DNA of 64,000 nt from Oscillospiraceae bacterium (GTDB lineage: Bacteria; Bacillota; Clostridia; Oscillospirales; Ruminococcaceae). The DNA lies in the NCBI GenBank assembly GCA_015067175.1, contig SVMX01000004.1, positions 124,001 to 188,000 of the forward strand, written 5' to 3'. The position numbers and the translations under genes were made by a program. Below are positions 4,736 through 48,962 of the stretch, piece by piece; the first letter of the stretch is position 1, and every line of letters begins with the position of its first letter. The notes beneath the pieces were generated by a model. The model worked only from the letters and a program-made list of their open reading frames with translations, did not search any database and was not told the DNA's origin.

Positions 4736-6033
4736 CAGATAGCCTTTCTAGCTTTCTTTTCAGACGCAACAGGGTCAGGCTCATCTACCTTTTCGATGTC
4801 AGCGCCGAGCAGGCGGAGCTTTTCCTCCATGTTCTCGTAACCGCGCTCCACATGATAGATGTCATATATTTCAGACACGCCTTCTGCGCCAAGTGCGGCA
4901 ACTATAAGCGCTGCGCCGGCACGAAGGTCGGTAGCCTTAACAGGTGCGCCCTTGAGCGAATCCACGCCCTCGATAACGGCAACTCTGCCCTCTACCGAGA
5001 TATTTGCGCCCATTCTGCGAAGCTCGTCAACATAACGGAAACGATTGTCGAAGATGCTTTCTGTCACCATACTTGCGCCCTTTGCACAGGTAAGCACTGC
5101 CGCCATCTGGGGCTGCATATCTGTGGGGAAACCGGGGTGCGGCTGAGTTTTAACGGTGGTGCCGACATAATTGTCGCCGCCGATAACTCTCACTGCGTCA
5201 TCGAACTGCTCTACCTTTACGCCGATCTTAACAAGCTTCTGAGTGATAGGCTCGAGATGTTTGGGAATAACATTTTTAATAAGGATATCGCTTCTGGTTG
5301 CGGCAGCTACGGCCATGAATGTACCCGCCTCGATCTGGTCGGGAATAACGCTGTAGTTTGTGCCGCGCAGATACTTCACACCGCGTATTTTAACCACATC
5401 GGTGCCTGCGCCGAGGATATCCGCGCCCATGGAGTTGAGGAAATTCGCGAGATCAACAACATGAGGCTCTTTCGCTGCATTTTCGATTATAGTAAGACCG
5501 TCAGCCTTTACCGCCGCCATGATTCCGTTAATGGTAGCGCCAACGGAGTTTTTGTCAAAGAATATCTGATTGCCGACAAGCCTGTCAGCGGTGAGGTTCA
5601 CCATACCGCCGTCGATAGTATAAGCAGCGCCGAGAGCTGCAAAGCACTTTAAATGCTGATCTATCGGACGATCGCCGAGATCGCAGCCGCCCGGCATGGA
5701 AACATGAGCCTCGTGAAAACGACCAAGCAGAGTGCCGAGGAAATAGGACGAAGCTCTCATGAGCTTAGCCTTTTCATAAGGCACAGGGATATTGCGCAGA
5801 GTACGCGGGTCGATCTCGACCGTTGTTTTGTTCAGCATACGAACATTTGCGCCCATCTCGGACATGATCTGAAGAATTATAGTGACATCGCTGATATTAG
5901 GTATATTTTCAATAACGCAGGGCTCATCGGAAAGGATAGCCGCAGGGAGTATCGCAGCAACCGCATTTTTTGCGCCGCTGATAACTACCTCACCGCTGAG
6001 CTTCTTTCCGCCCTTGATAACGTACTTTTCCAA
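4735..6033 (-). CDS. murA: UDP-N-acetylglucosamine 1-carboxyvinyltransferase
   Basis: MurA transfers enolpyruvate from PEP to UDP-GlcNAc, the first committed step of peptidoglycan synthesis in the cytoplasm. The 432-residue length is normal. The N-terminal KN pair is in SGAKNAV (residues 20-25), and the catalytic, fosfomycin-reactive cysteine is C117 in MPGGCDLGDRP. Late motifs HPGFPTDMQPQ and DLRAGAAL are also present. The C-terminal tail (about 12 residues, charged) is slightly longer than usual. It is first in a two-gene unit with walJ, driven by an extended -10 promoter about 115 bases upstream. Most clostridia carry two MurA paralogs; only this one is in view. Confidence 0.96.
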   Translation of the reverse strand: MEKYVIKGGKKLSGEVVISGAKNAVAAILPAAILSDEPCVIENIPNISDVTIILQIMSEMGANVRMLNKTTVEIDPRTLRNIPVPYEKAKLMRASSYFLGTLLGRFHEAHVSMPGGCDLGDRPIDQHLKCFAALGAAYTIDGGMVNLTADRLVGNQIFFDKNSVGATINGIMAAVKADGLTIIENAAKEPHVVDLANFLNSMGADILGAGTDVVKIRGVKYLRGTNYSVIPDQIEAGTFMAVAAATRSDILIKNVIPKHLEPITQKLVKIGVKVEQFDDAVRVIGGDNYVGTTVKTQPHPGFPTDMQPQMAAVLTCAKGASMVTESIFDNRFRYVDELRRMGANISVEGRVAVIEGVDSLKGAPVKATDLRAGAALIVAALGAEGVSEIYDIYHVERGYENMEEKLRLLGADIEKVDEPDPVASEKKARKAI

Positions 6034-6145
6034 AGAAACACTTCCCCTCGTCCCCTATAATCGGGACTGCAATAATATATTGAAACGCCGCCTCGCAGCG
6101 CTAAGTATCAAACACAGGCGAGAATGTATACACTCGCACGTTAAT

Positions 6146-6156
6146 ATTATATCATA
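6146..6156 (-). promoter_or_regulatory. Extended -10 promoter for murA-walJ
   Basis: On the minus strand the sequence TGATATAAT gives a perfect -10 box with the extended TGn element. The -35 region 17 bases upstream (TTTAAT) is poor, as is common for extended -10 promoters. It implies a leader of roughly 110 bases. Confidence 0.6.
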
Positions 6157-6465
6157 TTCAAACTGAAAATTAAAGTGGTTGAAGCAAAAAAAATGTCGAT
6201 TTTACTCTTTTTGTAACTTTCAACAAAAACATGGTTGAAAACTTTCTGTTTTTATCAAAGGATAAAGTATCGGCGCACATTTTCCGCTGCGTATATTATT
6301 GACCTGTGGGGCTAAAATAATCTTTCCGTAAGAAAAAACCTTAATAACATAAAAAATACTGCTACTCCGGACAACCGTACAAATTTTTTCTCAATCAGAA
6401 TAAACTATCTTCAATACTTTGAATGCCATTTTTGCAACACGACCGCCTATCTGCATTAAAACCCA
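6157..6465. other. Intergenic region between the divergent murA and dapL promoters, with repeats
   Basis: No gene is visible. The region is AT-rich and holds a 7-bp inverted repeat TTTCAAC/GTTGAAA (6218-6224 with 6234-6240, 9-base spacer). The octamer TGGTTGAA occurs directly repeated at 6176-6183 and 6232-6239. These could be binding sites of a regulator shared by the two cell-wall genes, but no protein can be named. Confidence 0.4.
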
Positions 6466-41214: not shown

Positions 41215-42357
41215 ATGAAAAAACGCGAAATTGCCATACTCTCCATACCTGTATTAATTTTATGTGTGGGAATTGCTTGGCTTGCCATCAACATATTCTC
41301 CGCGGAAGACGCGCCTGATTTCATATACACCTCTCAGATGCAGACATCAGGGAGCGCTGCAGCTACAGCTGCGACCTCCGCTTCGCAAGCGCCGCCCACT
41401 TCCTCGGCGACTACGACTGTTACAACCGAGAGCACGAGCGAACCAACCGAGAGCTTTCCGATACTGCTCACTACCAATGACCCCGAAAACTATGCCGAGC
41501 TTCAGCTGCAAGGCAACACCTTTTATATAAAGGGATATTTCAATTCGGACGAAGTCACTGGGGTCTTTGTAGGAGACAATAGCGTAAAACCCGCGTATAA
41601 CGATGACGGCACTTTTGAAGCTAAGCTTGAAATTCAAAACGACGGCTATAATAACGTTACGCTGAAGTTTTCCGAGGACAAACCGCAAAGCTTCCGTTTT
41701 TACTGTGACTCAAACGAAGCACATATCGTATTCTGTGATAACATCGCAGAGCAAAGCGAAAATGCTTTGCAGCATATCATTGATATACCTCAAACTGCCG
41801 TTGATGATTACATCGTAACAAACGGTACTGATGAGCAGCGTGAAACAACGCTCGAAGAGATAGCTGAGATAAGCGCACAGGTCTGCGACGGACTTCACAG
41901 CGACTACGACAAGGCGCGCGCACTGTCCGAATGGGTGTCACTAAACATCTATTACGACAGCGACGCATATAACAGCTCCGTCACCACAGAAACGCTGTCG
42001 CTTTGCAAAACGTTGGAAGAGCACCGCTCTGTCTGCGGTGGCTACGCAAATCTTTACGCCGCGCTGTGTCAGTCGCAAGGCATAGAATGTTACATCGTTC
42101 AAGGGTCTGTGGTACAGAACAACTACTCCTTTGAGGAGGACGTGGATATCGCGCCTAGCCACGAATGGAACGCTGTTTTTATAGACGGACGATTTATTTG
42201 GGTAGATTCTCTTTGGAACACCGATAACTTCTACAAAAACGGTAAATACGTCGAATCTGTGCAAGGTCTGAAATATTTCGATATCACGACCGAAGCACTC
42301 TCGCAAAATCACTGCGCAAAGCGCGTTGAACGCCGCGAATTTTTCGGCATTTCTTGA
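41215..42357 (+). CDS. Membrane-anchored transglutaminase-fold protein
   Basis: A 380-residue protein: N-terminal membrane helix (about residues 7-27), Ala/Thr/Ser-rich linker (about 45-85), a beta-sandwich-like domain (about 90-180), and a C-terminal transglutaminase-like domain. The catalytic triad fits C274 in SVCGGYANL, H316 in APSHEWNAV and D331 in WVDSLWN. Such extracytoplasmic domains act as cysteine proteases, crosslinkers or peptidoglycan amidases; which one cannot be told. It has its own consensus promoter and ends before a terminator on the opposite strand. Confidence 0.85.
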   Translation: MKKREIAILSIPVLILCVGIAWLAINIFSAEDAPDFIYTSQMQTSGSAAATAATSASQAPPTSSATTTVTTESTSEPTESFPILLTTNDPENYAELQLQGNTFYIKGYFNSDEVTGVFVGDNSVKPAYNDDGTFEAKLEIQNDGYNNVTLKFSEDKPQSFRFYCDSNEAHIVFCDNIAEQSENALQHIIDIPQTAVDDYIVTNGTDEQRETTLEEIAEISAQVCDGLHSDYDKARALSEWVSLNIYYDSDAYNSSVTTETLSLCKTLEEHRSVCGGYANLYAALCQSQGIECYIVQGSVVQNNYSFEEDVDIAPSHEWNAVFIDGRFIWVDSLWNTDNFYKNGKYVESVQGLKYFDITTEALSQNHCAKRVERREFFGIS

Positions 42358-44982: not shown

Positions 44983-45657
44983 TTACACTCTCTCCTTTAT
45001 TATATTGCATACAAGCTCGCAGGACTGCTCAAAATCAAGCTCGGAAGTGTCTGCAAGCACCGCGTCGTCAGCCTGCTTCAGCGGAGCAGTTTCGCGGTGA
45101 GAATCATTATAGTCCCTTGTGTTGAGATCGGATAAAACCTCTTCAAAAGTGGTTGCAACGCCTTTTGCGCAAAGCTCGTCATAGCGGCGCTTTGCACGTA
45201 TCTCAGGCTTTGCGGTGAGAAATATCTTCACCGTTGCATTCGGAAGAACGACAGTGCCTATATCCCGACCGTCCATAATAACGCTGTTTGTTTCGGCCAT
45301 GTTCCTTTGCAGGTCAAGCAAAGCCGCTCTCACAGCGGGAATAGCGGAAACAGCAGAAGCCGCCATGGATATCTCGGGAAGCCTTATCTCCTCAGAAACA
45401 TCTTCTCCGTTCAGATATATATGCTGAACGCCATCGATAAGACGTATTTCAGGGCGAACTTCGGTCAAAACCGACTCTACAGCGGAAGCGTCGGCAATAT
45501 CTACCCCGCTTCTTTTGCAGAAAAGACCCACAGCTCTGTACAATGCCCCTGTATCAACATAGATATAGCCAAGCGTTTTTGCGGCATTTCGCGCGATACT
45601 GCTTTTGCCTGCTCCGACAGGACCGTCGATAGCAACCGAAACATGAGGCTTTGCCAT
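44983..45657 (-). CDS. cmk: Cytidylate kinase
   Basis: Cmk phosphorylates CMP and dCMP. The 224 residues contain the P-loop DGPVGAGKSSIAR (about 9-21), YVDTGALYRAVG (CMP binding, about 33-44), the lid arginines in MDGRDIGTVVLP and AKRRYDEL, and NTRDYNDSHRETAPL typical of the family. I start at 45657, after AAGGAG; a longer frame extends upstream toward the promoter without a ribosome site. First gene of the operon. Confidence 0.94.
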   Translation of the reverse strand: MAKPHVSVAIDGPVGAGKSSIARNAAKTLGYIYVDTGALYRAVGLFCKRSGVDIADASAVESVLTEVRPEIRLIDGVQHIYLNGEDVSEEIRLPEISMAASAVSAIPAVRAALLDLQRNMAETNSVIMDGRDIGTVVLPNATVKIFLTAKPEIRAKRRYDELCAKGVATTFEEVLSDLNTRDYNDSHRETAPLKQADDAVLADTSELDFEQSCELVCNIIKERV

Positions 45658-45756
45658 AAGCTTACTCCTTATTATGACAGCGAAAATACGCCGCCGTAAT
45701 ATTTTACCAAAAGGCGCTAAAGGGTACAATTCCCCCTTTATAACCTATCAGAAGTT

Positions 45757-45881: not shown

Positions 45882-45910
45882 ACAAAACCGCCTAAAACAG
45901 GCGGTTTTGT
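45882..45910 (-). terminator. Terminator after the paralog pair
   Basis: A 12-bp perfect stem (45910-45899 with 45893-45882, 5-base loop) with TTTTGT on its 3' side, 8 bases past the stop of the 281-residue protein. Confidence 0.88.
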
Positions 45911-45917
45911 GATCTTA

Positions 45918-46763
45918 TTAAAGCTCGATAGGCTTTTCAGCCGACATAGATGGTTCCGTTTTCTTTGCAGTGCGGTTTACACCTGCGCTTTTGCTGTTAT
46001 TAAAGGTGTTAAAATCCATAGCTACGTCTAAGTCGGCATCTGCAGTTTTCACCATCTTGGAAGAAGCTGTATTATTCAGCGCTTCCTGAAGCTTTCTGCT
46101 TTCAAGTGCATTCTTTTCATAACGTTCATTAGCAGCCTCGACATTTGCTTCGTGTGTAACGAGATCATTCTCATATTGCTCACGTGCGGCTTTATCGTTC
46201 TCGAACTTCTCAAAATCCGCACTGAACAGATTGAACATTCGGTTCATGATGCGCTTGAATAAATTCGGTCTTTTCGGCACAGGTACTTCAGCGGGAGGCT
46301 CAGGCTCAAAAACTGTAGGGAACATATCAACAGGCTCGTTTTGGATATCTACCAGCCCTATGAGCGGCGATCTCTCATCAGCCGCCAAGCCCATTGAAGT
46401 CAATATCGAAAGATGGCAAAGCACCTTTTTATAGTTGCCGTCGTGTATCTCGCCGTCAAGGTAATTGTAAGGCTTGCCCGATATCGTTATTCGCTCGGCA
46501 AGATTTCTTACATCTTCAACAGTAACATTATTGATATTAAGCTGATCTTTTTCCAACATCACTGCAAAAATGCCGCCAAGATGCATCTCGGCATGAAGCA
46601 TACCCTCATGAAGTGAATCCGCGCTCACATCTGCACGCAGAACATCTGCCTGATAGCGCTGCGCAAGCACTATTCCGTATGTTTTATTATCCCGCGGAAA
46701 AAGACGCCTGATAGTTCTTATCGCAGCCCTGTCATAGCGCTCCGAAAGATCGATACCTGCCAT
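45918..46763 (-). CDS. Uncharacterised protein, paralog B of a tandem pair
   Basis: A 281-residue, soluble, charged protein with no signal peptide or membrane helix. It has an alpha-rich N-terminal domain (1-150) with INNVTVEDVRNLAERITISGK (about 75-95, cut here for length at the T/V core VTVEDVRNL), then PLIGLVDIQNEPVD, a proline linker (EPEPPAEVPVP), the basic motif PKRPNLFKRIMNRMF (about 165-180), and a long coiled-coil stretch to about 240. The whole layout repeats in the gene upstream. I do not recognise the family. Downstream of paralog A by 44 bases, then a terminator. Confidence 0.72.
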   Translation of the reverse strand: MAGIDLSERYDRAAIRTIRRLFPRDNKTYGIVLAQRYQADVLRADVSADSLHEGMLHAEMHLGGIFAVMLEKDQLNINNVTVEDVRNLAERITISGKPYNYLDGEIHDGNYKKVLCHLSILTSMGLAADERSPLIGLVDIQNEPVDMFPTVFEPEPPAEVPVPKRPNLFKRIMNRMFNLFSADFEKFENDKAAREQYENDLVTHEANVEAANERYEKNALESRKLQEALNNTASSKMVKTADADLDVAMDFNTFNNSKSAGVNRTAKKTEPSMSAEKPIEL

Positions 46764-46807
46764 AATTCAAAACCACCTTTACTGTAATCTCTGTGCAGTC
46801 TTTTTCT

Positions 46808-47662
46808 TTAATGATTGCCACCCATCGAAAGCTGTTTCTCAACAGTTTTATCTTTTGCGTTGGGCTTTTCGTTAGTCTGCACATTTACGTTGATACCTGC
46901 TTCCTCCATAAGACGAGCAGCACTGATTGGCTTATCAATATGGTTGTTTATTTCATTACGTTTTTCTTCAACATTCAACTCATTCATCTGTCCTTTGACC
47001 AATTCGCTGAAATTCACACTCGCGCCGTAGTTATCGTCAAAACGCTCATCAATTGCGGCGCAGCGCTCGTTATATGCTGCCAAACGCTCGTCGTATTTAT
47101 CGTAAAATTCCTTATTGCGATCGTATTCCTCGAACTCCACGCGATAAGAGCCAAACATTTTATTGAGCAATCTCTTGAAGATATTGGGACGCTTAGGACG
47201 ATCGCCGCGGACAGGCGCAGCACCCTTAAAAACATCTGTCGTTACAGTAAGCGGATTACCTTCGTTGTCGACAAGCCCCATCACAGGGCCCTCCCTATCA
47301 CCGGACAAGCTCTTTGACATGCTTGCGCCAAGCAACCCCAGAATGCTCTTGTAATTGCTTTCGTCGATATCCTCTCCGTTTACTTCAAATCTATTTCCGT
47401 TAAGAGCGGTCATATTAACGATATCTCTCACTTCATTAACGGTAACGTCATCAATGGTAGCGTCATCTCTGCCGATCATCTTGCTGAAAACGCCCTTTAG
47501 GTGAATATTGGCATGCGGATCGAAGAAATGTCTAGGAATATTAAAATCTCGAGTTTTCACAAGGTCAAACGCCTGTTCATACATTCCATCAGGAAGCCCG
47601 AGGTCACGGACAAGACCTGCCGCTTCTTCATTATAGTAATGCCCAGCAATCAAATTCGGCAT
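46808..47662 (-). CDS. Uncharacterised protein, paralog A of a tandem pair
   Basis: A 284-residue soluble protein, organised as paralog B: N-terminal helical domain with HLKGVFSKMIGRD and DDVTVNEVRDIV, then PVMGLVDNEGNP, a short linker and PKRPNIFKRLLNKMF (about 160-175), then a charged coiled coil (EEYDRNKEFYDKYDER) and an Asn/Lys-rich tail. Residue matches with B are concentrated in the VTV.EVR segment, the GLVD strand and the PKRPN.FKR motif. The start at 47662 follows GGGGTG; an in-frame GTG 9 bases upstream overlaps that site. It lies 70 bases after the flavoprotein gene with no terminator between. Confidence 0.72.
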   Translation of the reverse strand: MPNLIAGHYYNEEAAGLVRDLGLPDGMYEQAFDLVKTRDFNIPRHFFDPHANIHLKGVFSKMIGRDDATIDDVTVNEVRDIVNMTALNGNRFEVNGEDIDESNYKSILGLLGASMSKSLSGDREGPVMGLVDNEGNPLTVTTDVFKGAAPVRGDRPKRPNIFKRLLNKMFGSYRVEFEEYDRNKEFYDKYDERLAAYNERCAAIDERFDDNYGASVNFSELVKGQMNELNVEEKRNEINNHIDKPISAARLMEEAGINVNVQTNEKPNAKDKTVEKQLSMGGNH

Positions 47663-47732
47663 GATATTCACCCCTTTTAAATGTTTTTATATCCTCTATA
47701 AATATTTACGCAGCTATCCGCCAAACGTAACA

Positions 47733-48962
47733 TTACTGCGCTTTTTCACAAATCGCGCTTGCTGCGGCATGACCTGTCGAAAACGCTATCTGCAGGTTAA
47801 AGCCGCCCGTATAGCCGTCGCAGTCGATTATCTCGCCCGCAAAATACAAATTATTGCACAGCTTTGACTGCATAGTTTTCGGCTCTATCTCCTTTACCGA
47901 AACGCCGCCGCGCGTAACGATAGCCTCCTCGATAGGACGAAAGCCCGACACGTCAAACGACAGCTCTTTGAGCTGTTTAAGCAGCGCCGAACGCTCAGAT
48001 CTTGATATCTCGTCAACCTTTTTCAAAGGGTCTATCCCGCAGCGCTTCACTATCATCGGAACGAGCTGTGCAGGAAGAAGTCCGCGCAGACTTTCGCCGA
48101 ACTGCTGCCCTCTGCGCTCCGAAAAATCCCTGAGGATGCGCGCGTCAAGCTGCTTTTCGCTCAGCGCAGGCTTCAGGTCTATCTTTATAGAATAGCGGTC
48201 CCGTTCCATTTTTGGGATATGCGCCGAAGCACTCAGCACCGTAGGACCCGATACGCCGTAGTTCATAAACGTAAGCTCACCGAAATCCTCATATATACAC
48301 TTGCCGCCGTCAACTAGCTTCATTGATATGTTGCGCAGATTAAGACCTGCGGCTTCAAGCGGCTTTTGCACCGTTTCCATAGCGGACAGTGACGGCTCGG
48401 GTGGAACTATCGTGTGACCCGCCTGCTTTGCCAAAGTGTATCCAAACCCGTCTGAACCTGTCAGCGGATAGGAGCAGCCTCCTGTTGCAACGACCGTTGC
48501 GGTCGCCTTTATCTCGCGCTTTTTCGTCTTTGCGCCAAGGCAAACTCCGTCCTCTATAATAAGCGCCGTGCAAGCCTCGCATATCACTTCGACTTTAAGT
48601 CGCGATATTTCCTTTTTCAGCGCCGACACTATATCATGCGCCTTGTCGGACTGCGGAAAAACTCGGTTTCCGCGCTCGGTCTTAAGCGGCACTCCAATGC
48701 TCTCGAAAAACTCCATCACATCAGCCGCCGAAAACTGCGAAAGCGCACTGTACAAAAAGCGTGCATTGCGCGGTATATTCTTCATTATCGTATCATTATC
48801 GCAGTTGTTGCAGACATTACAGCGCCCCTTGCCCGTTATCGCAAGCTTTTTGCCAAGGCGGTCGTTCTTTTCAAGCAGCGCAGTGCGCATACCTTTTTTC
48901 GCTGCGGTAACAGCGCACAGCATTCCTGCCGCGCCGCCGCCGATTATCAAAATATCAAACAT
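47733..48962 (-). CDS. HI0933-type FAD-dependent oxidoreductase (BaiN/YhiN family)
   Basis: A 409-residue flavoprotein. The N-terminal FAD motif is DILIIGGGAAGMLCAV, followed by the family signature LAITGKGRCNVCN (about 44-56), RVFPQSDKAHDIV, the GGCSYPLTGSDGFGY strand and the C-terminal TRGGVSVKEIEPKTM and AGEIIDCDGYTGGFNLQ. Members of this family include BaiN, proposed to act in bile-acid dehydroxylation, but most are of unknown substrate. Start at 48962 with an AGGT site 10 bases upstream; it overlaps the 3' end of the RpiR gene by 8 bases, so they are co-transcribed. Confidence 0.88.
   Translation of the reverse strand: MFDILIIGGGAAGMLCAVTAAKKGMRTALLEKNDRLGKKLAITGKGRCNVCNNCDNDTIMKNIPRNARFLYSALSQFSAADVMEFFESIGVPLKTERGNRVFPQSDKAHDIVSALKKEISRLKVEVICEACTALIIEDGVCLGAKTKKREIKATATVVATGGCSYPLTGSDGFGYTLAKQAGHTIVPPEPSLSAMETVQKPLEAAGLNLRNISMKLVDGGKCIYEDFGELTFMNYGVSGPTVLSASAHIPKMERDRYSIKIDLKPALSEKQLDARILRDFSERRGQQFGESLRGLLPAQLVPMIVKRCGIDPLKKVDEISRSERSALLKQLKELSFDVSGFRPIEEAIVTRGGVSVKEIEPKTMQSKLCNNLYFAGEIIDCDGYTGGFNLQIAFSTGHAAASAICEKAQ

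Follow-up and report, generated by a model that had tools for sequence, protein, structure and literature searches.

ECF sigma factors usually autoregulate. In B. subtilis, SigW, SigM and SigX read promoters composed of TGWAAC, about 16 nt and CGT, which precede cell-envelope genes. A second relevant precedent is the C-terminal membrane-targeting helix of MinD type, which is short, basic and amphipathic. For the ECF factor Tt-RpoE1 of Thermoanaerobacter tengcongensis, the experimentally defined promoter is tGTTAC-N16-CGTC (PMC3397946). Here we describe a pair of orphan genes in a 64,000-nt stretch of an Oscillospiraceae genome (the window) that carries a promoter of this kind, together with the dispersed genes of the same assembly that have it in common.

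The gene pair and its paralogs

The pair comprises the minus-strand ORFs P0002 and P0001 (Table 1). As the preliminary description had proposed, these are tandem paralogs, 28% identical in alignment with E between 2e-30 and 7.5e-32. Both contain the segments VTVEDVR/VTVNEVR, GLVD and PKRPN(L/I)FKR(I/L)(M/L)N(R/K)MF, and both are preceded by a ribosome-binding-site-like sequence identified by eye. A degenerate DNA pattern of the PKRPN motif had two matches in the window, and 100 shuffles gave none. The strong terminator described earlier was recovered 3' of P0001 (-18.9 kcal/mol, z -5.5). Elsewhere in the window, positions 41215-42357 hold a transglutaminase-like ORF with an N-terminal membrane segment, as judged by eye.

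Searching the genome itself revealed four further paralogs, P0003-P0006, at separate sites on contigs C1, C13 and C7. P0006 alone was a weak match (E 0.47 with P0002), yet has the same layout. Aligned, the six proteins consist of a helical front, an IDGKPYPV consensus region, a short strand, a linker, the motif and a coiled coil; (K/R)PN(I/L)FKR is retained in five of the six and degenerate in P0006. G+C content of the P0003-P0006 genes (L056-L059) was 0.44-0.47, against about 0.50-0.52 for most flanking genes. Several of the C-terminal tails of P0001, P0002, P0003, P0005 and P0006 contain AG(M/V/I) or DGM followed by K.T, and P0002, P0003 and P0005 finish with sequences like M(S)MGG or MSGG. 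Recurring behind a variable coil, these tail motifs are possibly a signal, to judge from sequence.

The description of the family as unrecognized held across every collection searched. There was no match at the curated cut-off in Pfam (P0001-P0006) or NCBIfam (P0001, P0002) and none in PADLOC for P0001-P0006; the best E values were 0.05 in PHROGs (P0001, P0002) and 0.35 for a PDB sequence profile. The acylglycerol kinase C-terminal family (AGK_C, PF19712) came closest to P0001, at 25.9 bits against a gathering cut-off of 27 over residues 154-221, spanning motif and coil, with no match for P0002. DUF3490, Mod_r, Sec10_N, GapR, TcdB_N, hAT-like and other candidates each fell under their own cut-off. 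With the six-row alignment as input, AlphaFold2 modeled P0001 (mean pLDDT 71, pTM 0.63) as a folded core plus one helix spanning residues 168-177 and a single further helix spanning 181-256, the latter with mean confidence below 60 from about residue 241. This long predicted helix lies behind the basic motif, consistent with the coiled coil suggested earlier. Neither Foldseek nor a second look with VIA returned a significant structure match for the model in PDB or BFVD.

The pair lies between genes that we take, from their sequences, to encode a BaiN-like flavoprotein and cytidylate kinase (cmk). Loci around BaiN were fetched from 16 of the 38 other genus genomes with a BaiN match. In 14 of these 16, cmk follows BaiN without the pair, so the pair appears to be an insertion. 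The distance between the BaiN and cmk matches was 140-378 bp in 13 loci and 762 bp in L042, where an acetyltransferase-like gene (5396-6157) occupies the gap; given that gene, the gap may accept insertions repeatedly. Other genes follow BaiN in G027 and G017, the nearest genomes by BaiN identity. At the P0004 site, the neighboring membrane-protein gene and LepA occur together without P0004 in 13/13 fetched genus loci. This is not a clean empty site because the relatives also lack the gene that precedes P0004, leaving BaiN-cmk as the sole clean one. The neighbor of P0006 was found in just three other genus genomes, with different genes beside it.

Table 1. Features of the gene pair (positions in the window) and of the other promoter-bearing units (contig:positions in the assembly)
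Feature	Position	Strand	Basis or remark
P0002, first gene of pair, 284 aa	46808..47662	-	ORF and own-genome search
P0001, second gene of pair, 281 aa	45918..46763	-	ORF and own-genome search
PKRPN(I)FKR motif of P0002, opening a predicted basic amphipathic helix	47160..47197	-	pattern match, helix score
PKRPN(L)FKR motif of P0001, opening a predicted basic amphipathic helix	46240..46277	-	pattern match, helix score
P0001 residues 181-256, one long predicted helix	45996..46223	-	structure model
Candidate ECF-type promoter TGTTAC-N16-CGTA	47707..47732	-	directly behind BaiN stop codon
Intrinsic terminator closing the pair	45882..45910	-	symmetric stem; + strand in scan listing
BaiN-like flavoprotein (presumed), upstream neighbor	47733..48962	-	named from sequence
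Cytidylate kinase, cmk (presumed), downstream neighbor	44983..45660	-	named from sequence
Promoter units of first family: P0002-P0001; P0003; P0004; P0005; P0006			
P0008, 812 aa	C1:321724-324162		
P0009, 761 aa	C1:268550-270835		
P0010, 520 aa	C13:105971-107533		
P0011, 673 aa	C4:31585-33606		
Secreted-looking protein, 247 aa, signal-peptide-like start, hydrophobic tail	C6:113891-114634		by eye
Exopolysaccharide operon: glycosyltransferase-like gene, Bac_transf sugar transferase, Wzy_C ligase	C6:55779-60593		glycosyltransferase-like gene by eye

A common promoter and the genes behind it

The pair had been suggested to form a regulated unit, and it does have its own promoter within the 70 bp that separate it from the flavoprotein gene, the one exact match to TGTTAC-N16-CGTA in the window (0.03 expected); the pair may also be co-transcribed from BaiN. 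Control through the neighboring RpiR gene, implied earlier, was not supported: 14 genus genomes have the RpiR-BaiN-cmk run without the pair, and its ECF-type promoter is common to its dispersed paralogs. P0002, P0003, P0004, P0005 and P0006 are each preceded by TGTTAC-N16-CGTA(T/A)A; the promoter thus stands before every transcription unit of the six paralogs (5/5), always with a 16-nt spacer. The exact pattern was present in 28 of 80 loci, all 28 covering family genes of this genome, and in none of 49 loci of other genomes (343,112 bases, some overlapping).

The whole assembly (2,144,111 bases) contains 13 exact matches. Ten of these with a longer consensus formed the matrix set; the other three (C2, C5, C14), which have no fitting gene downstream, were left out. 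With the full-width matrix the ten sites scored 28.2 or more, and the next site 19.3. Using the -35/-10 columns only, the ten took genome ranks 1-10 with scores of 22.9-27.1. Rank 11 (21.7) went to the site before P0011, which is absent from the matrix; the following site scored 18.8 and the reversed-genome maximum was 16.6. The same site ranked 10 of 1576 ORF upstream regions. P0011 was discovered through homology to P0009 (E 4e-27), not through its promoter, which reads TGTTAC-N16-AGTATAAA and begins 70 nt before the ATG. AGTA replaces CGTA in this site, which reached only 8.6 in the full-width matrix. That low score counts against the regulon, whereas the genome-wide core ranking counts for it. 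A matrix built from the five family promoters alone gave 28.0-30.0 for P0009, the secreted-looking protein and the exopolysaccharide operon, against a reversed-genome maximum of 21.3. P0010, at 21.4, was level with that maximum. Owing to its different spacer, P0008 reached just 15.2, less than several chance sites; both match the exact TGTTAC-N16-CGTA pattern.

Eleven sites therefore top all others in the assembly: ten orphan proteins lie behind nine of them, and the remaining two precede the secreted-looking protein and the exopolysaccharide operon, respectively. The domains of this operon include Bac_transf (PF02397) and Wzy_C (PF04932). This common -35/-10 pair, at fixed spacing before dispersed genes, is the arrangement of an ECF regulon, and a regulon of about eleven promoters is well supported. 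The orphans include two groups of established paralogs, since P0008 and P0011 are both homologous to P0009. Profile comparison of P0001-P0006 with P0009 and P0010 gave no significant homology, and the first family is linked to these two by promoter and layout alone. The exopolysaccharide operon suggests a link between the regulon and surface polysaccharide. As the assembly is 84% complete by estimate, it may lack the sigma gene or additional members of the regulon.

The basic amphipathic helix and its occurrence elsewhere

Each of the ten orphan proteins has a basic amphipathic segment, namely the motif in P0001-P0006 and LSLWDRIIRFFKNLF, FSIWRAILRFFGIEL, VSLLIRILRFFNIIK and PWWKKLFNLLFGKK in P0008-P0011. 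These segments, chosen by eye before scoring, were compared in 14-residue windows with 62,475 genome segments using the HeliQuest score (0.944 x moment + 0.33 x charge). Nine of the ten proteins scored at or above the 95th percentile, with P0009 at 86.6. The best window of the protein overlapped the motif in eight of ten (in P0003 by tie) and lay elsewhere in P0009 and P0010. The segments thus combine a basic amphipathic helix with a high hydrophobic moment, as in MinD, weakly so in P0009. Hydrophobic residues (F, I/L, M, F, also W) occupy the conserved motif positions and recur with the period of a helix, a predicted lipid-facing pattern.

Occurrence was surveyed in genus, order and class sets that include this genome and overlap, the genus set holding 42 other genomes. 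Full-length matches to the six-row profile came from the source genome only, in the genus (1/43) as in the order (1/394) and class (1/391) samples. Partial matches occurred in five other genus genomes, one genome of the order sample and two of the class sample. All but L015 were opened and, except for one Agathobaculum protein, were unrelated or convergent. Weak matches in L014, L021-L023, L027, L028, L036, L053 and L054 were likewise opened and judged unrelated or convergent; the inspection left out L015, L029 and L030. The preliminary description had made the reading depend on homologs that retain PKRPN. Such homologs exist within this genome (five of six paralogs); outside it, the Agathobaculum protein alone shares the motif convincingly.

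That protein, P0007 (697 aa; L055 1901-3994; L055/L061; G358), has PAPKKPGFFKKMLNK plus a coil, a module that stands behind an Ntox11 match (71 bits, cut-off 25). With Ntox11 in mid-protein rather than terminal and PKKPGFFKK and coil behind it, the order is unusual for a polymorphic toxin. A search of 295 order genomes found one relative, a 462-aa ORF that stops before the module. The A2 module profile included the Agathobaculum segment, so its strong match there arises by construction. A 39-letter degenerate motif pattern, in which one place must read AGR or AAR and which would not detect even P0002, hit four loci in the genome contig collection (Agathobaculum and three judged chance) and none in viral contigs. 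Protein searches found no relatives in viral contigs (including with P0011), phages (P0002), plasmids (P0001, P0011) or the genome contig collection (P0002).

Tandem TPR-like paralogs were observed in genus relatives (L021 1600-2220, L023 970-1596, and L022). One paralog each in L021 and L023 has a C-terminal TKKPN(V/I)FKRIF..LFKK, a helix motif that seems to have arisen there. The adjoining genes presumably encode partners of toxin-antitoxin type, resembling HEPN (L021, L022) and MNT (L022).

Proposed function and relation to known systems

We consider it somewhat better than an even chance that these genes, with their roughly eleven promoters, form an ECF-type envelope regulon and that its orphan products attach to the membrane by their helix. 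One ECF-type alternative sigma factor would read all the promoters, that of the pair included. An envelope or surface signal would free this factor, so that P0001-P0006, P0008-P0011, the secreted-looking surface protein and the exopolysaccharide synthesis operon would be made together. The orphan proteins would be soluble, with the basic amphipathic helix (PNIFKRLLNKMF in P0002) attaching them to the cytoplasmic membrane from the inside, in the manner of a MinD-type targeting helix. In P0001-P0006 the long helix behind the motif may serve as a scaffold or partner arm.

The promoter set could be real and yet serve an alternative sigma factor outside the ECF class, or depend on an activator, which we regard as quite unlikely. 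The promoter was absent from the 400 bases ahead of all 13 sigma-like ORFs examined, out of 15 found in the genome (best core score 6.2). The autoregulation expected of a candidate ECF factor is thus not seen among them, which speaks for a different reader, as does the resemblance of GCGTAT to SigB-type -10 elements. Against this, both the -35 element (tGTTAC) and the exact 16-nt spacing are those of the characterized Tt-RpoE1 promoter, and the -10 element likewise starts with CGT, being CGTC there and CGTA(T/A)A here (PMC3397946). With a promoter this close to identical, an ECF factor is the likeliest reader, and we infer that the set is read by one. A literature search found nothing joining an ECF sigma factor, exopolysaccharide and Ruminococcus.

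Rather than docking inside the cell, the orphan proteins may be cargo exported without a signal peptide, as antagonism or adhesion factors, with the proline-rich linker, basic helix and coil as an export module behind variable parts. Co-regulation with the secreted-looking protein and the exopolysaccharide operon would fit, as would the fact that they are strongly diverged and, in the samples, confined to this genome; moreover, in the only convincing outside match to motif plus coil, P0007, the mid-protein domain is a polymorphic-toxin one. We nevertheless think export unlikely: P0001-P0006 and P0008-P0010 have no toxin domain above cut-off, Ntox11 (PF15521) included, and the ORF of the one relative of P0007 that was found stops before the module. 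Binding of nucleic acid by the motif, with the proteins as condensing or regulatory factors, is very improbable. The motif is basic and a long predicted helix follows it, but the hydrophobic spacing described above points to lipid, no DNA-binding family was matched above cut-off, and the GapR match of P0005, at 12.2 bits, stayed below its cut-off of 22.6. The helix statistics would favor membrane docking over such binding.

Orphan families usually stay 'hypothetical' as no process is tied to them. Here, a short exact promoter links ten proteins with no recognized relatives to exopolysaccharide synthesis and a secreted-looking protein, turning unknown function into a testable regulon. This suggests that taxonomically restricted genes can be jointly recruited by a single alternative sigma factor. 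As a sequence handle, the promoter can further help to find equivalent sets in other Clostridia, whose proteins are perhaps too diverged for protein searches. The regulon may even be private to a single species, its nine dispersed units supplying ten fast-evolving orphans that all carry a helix for membrane docking or export and jointly form a surface coat, aggregation or antagonism machine. We regard this as possible, if on the doubtful side; if true, the machine would be lineage-specific and without described counterpart.

The motif resembles MinD-type helices in being short, basic and amphipathic and in having an F-K-R-L-F-like core. Unlike the C-terminal helices of MinD, it is internal, with a long helix behind it in P0001-P0006, and no ATPase family was matched. 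P0007 resembles the pair in a proline-rich stretch, PKKPGFFKKMLNK and a coil; it belongs to another family of the same order, and its Ntox11 domain and remainder are unmatched in the paralog family. The B. subtilis SigW, SigM and SigX regulons differ in that orphan proteins dominate here and full-length relatives of P0001-P0006 occur in no other sampled genome, but they are alike in promoter type and in their cell-envelope genes.
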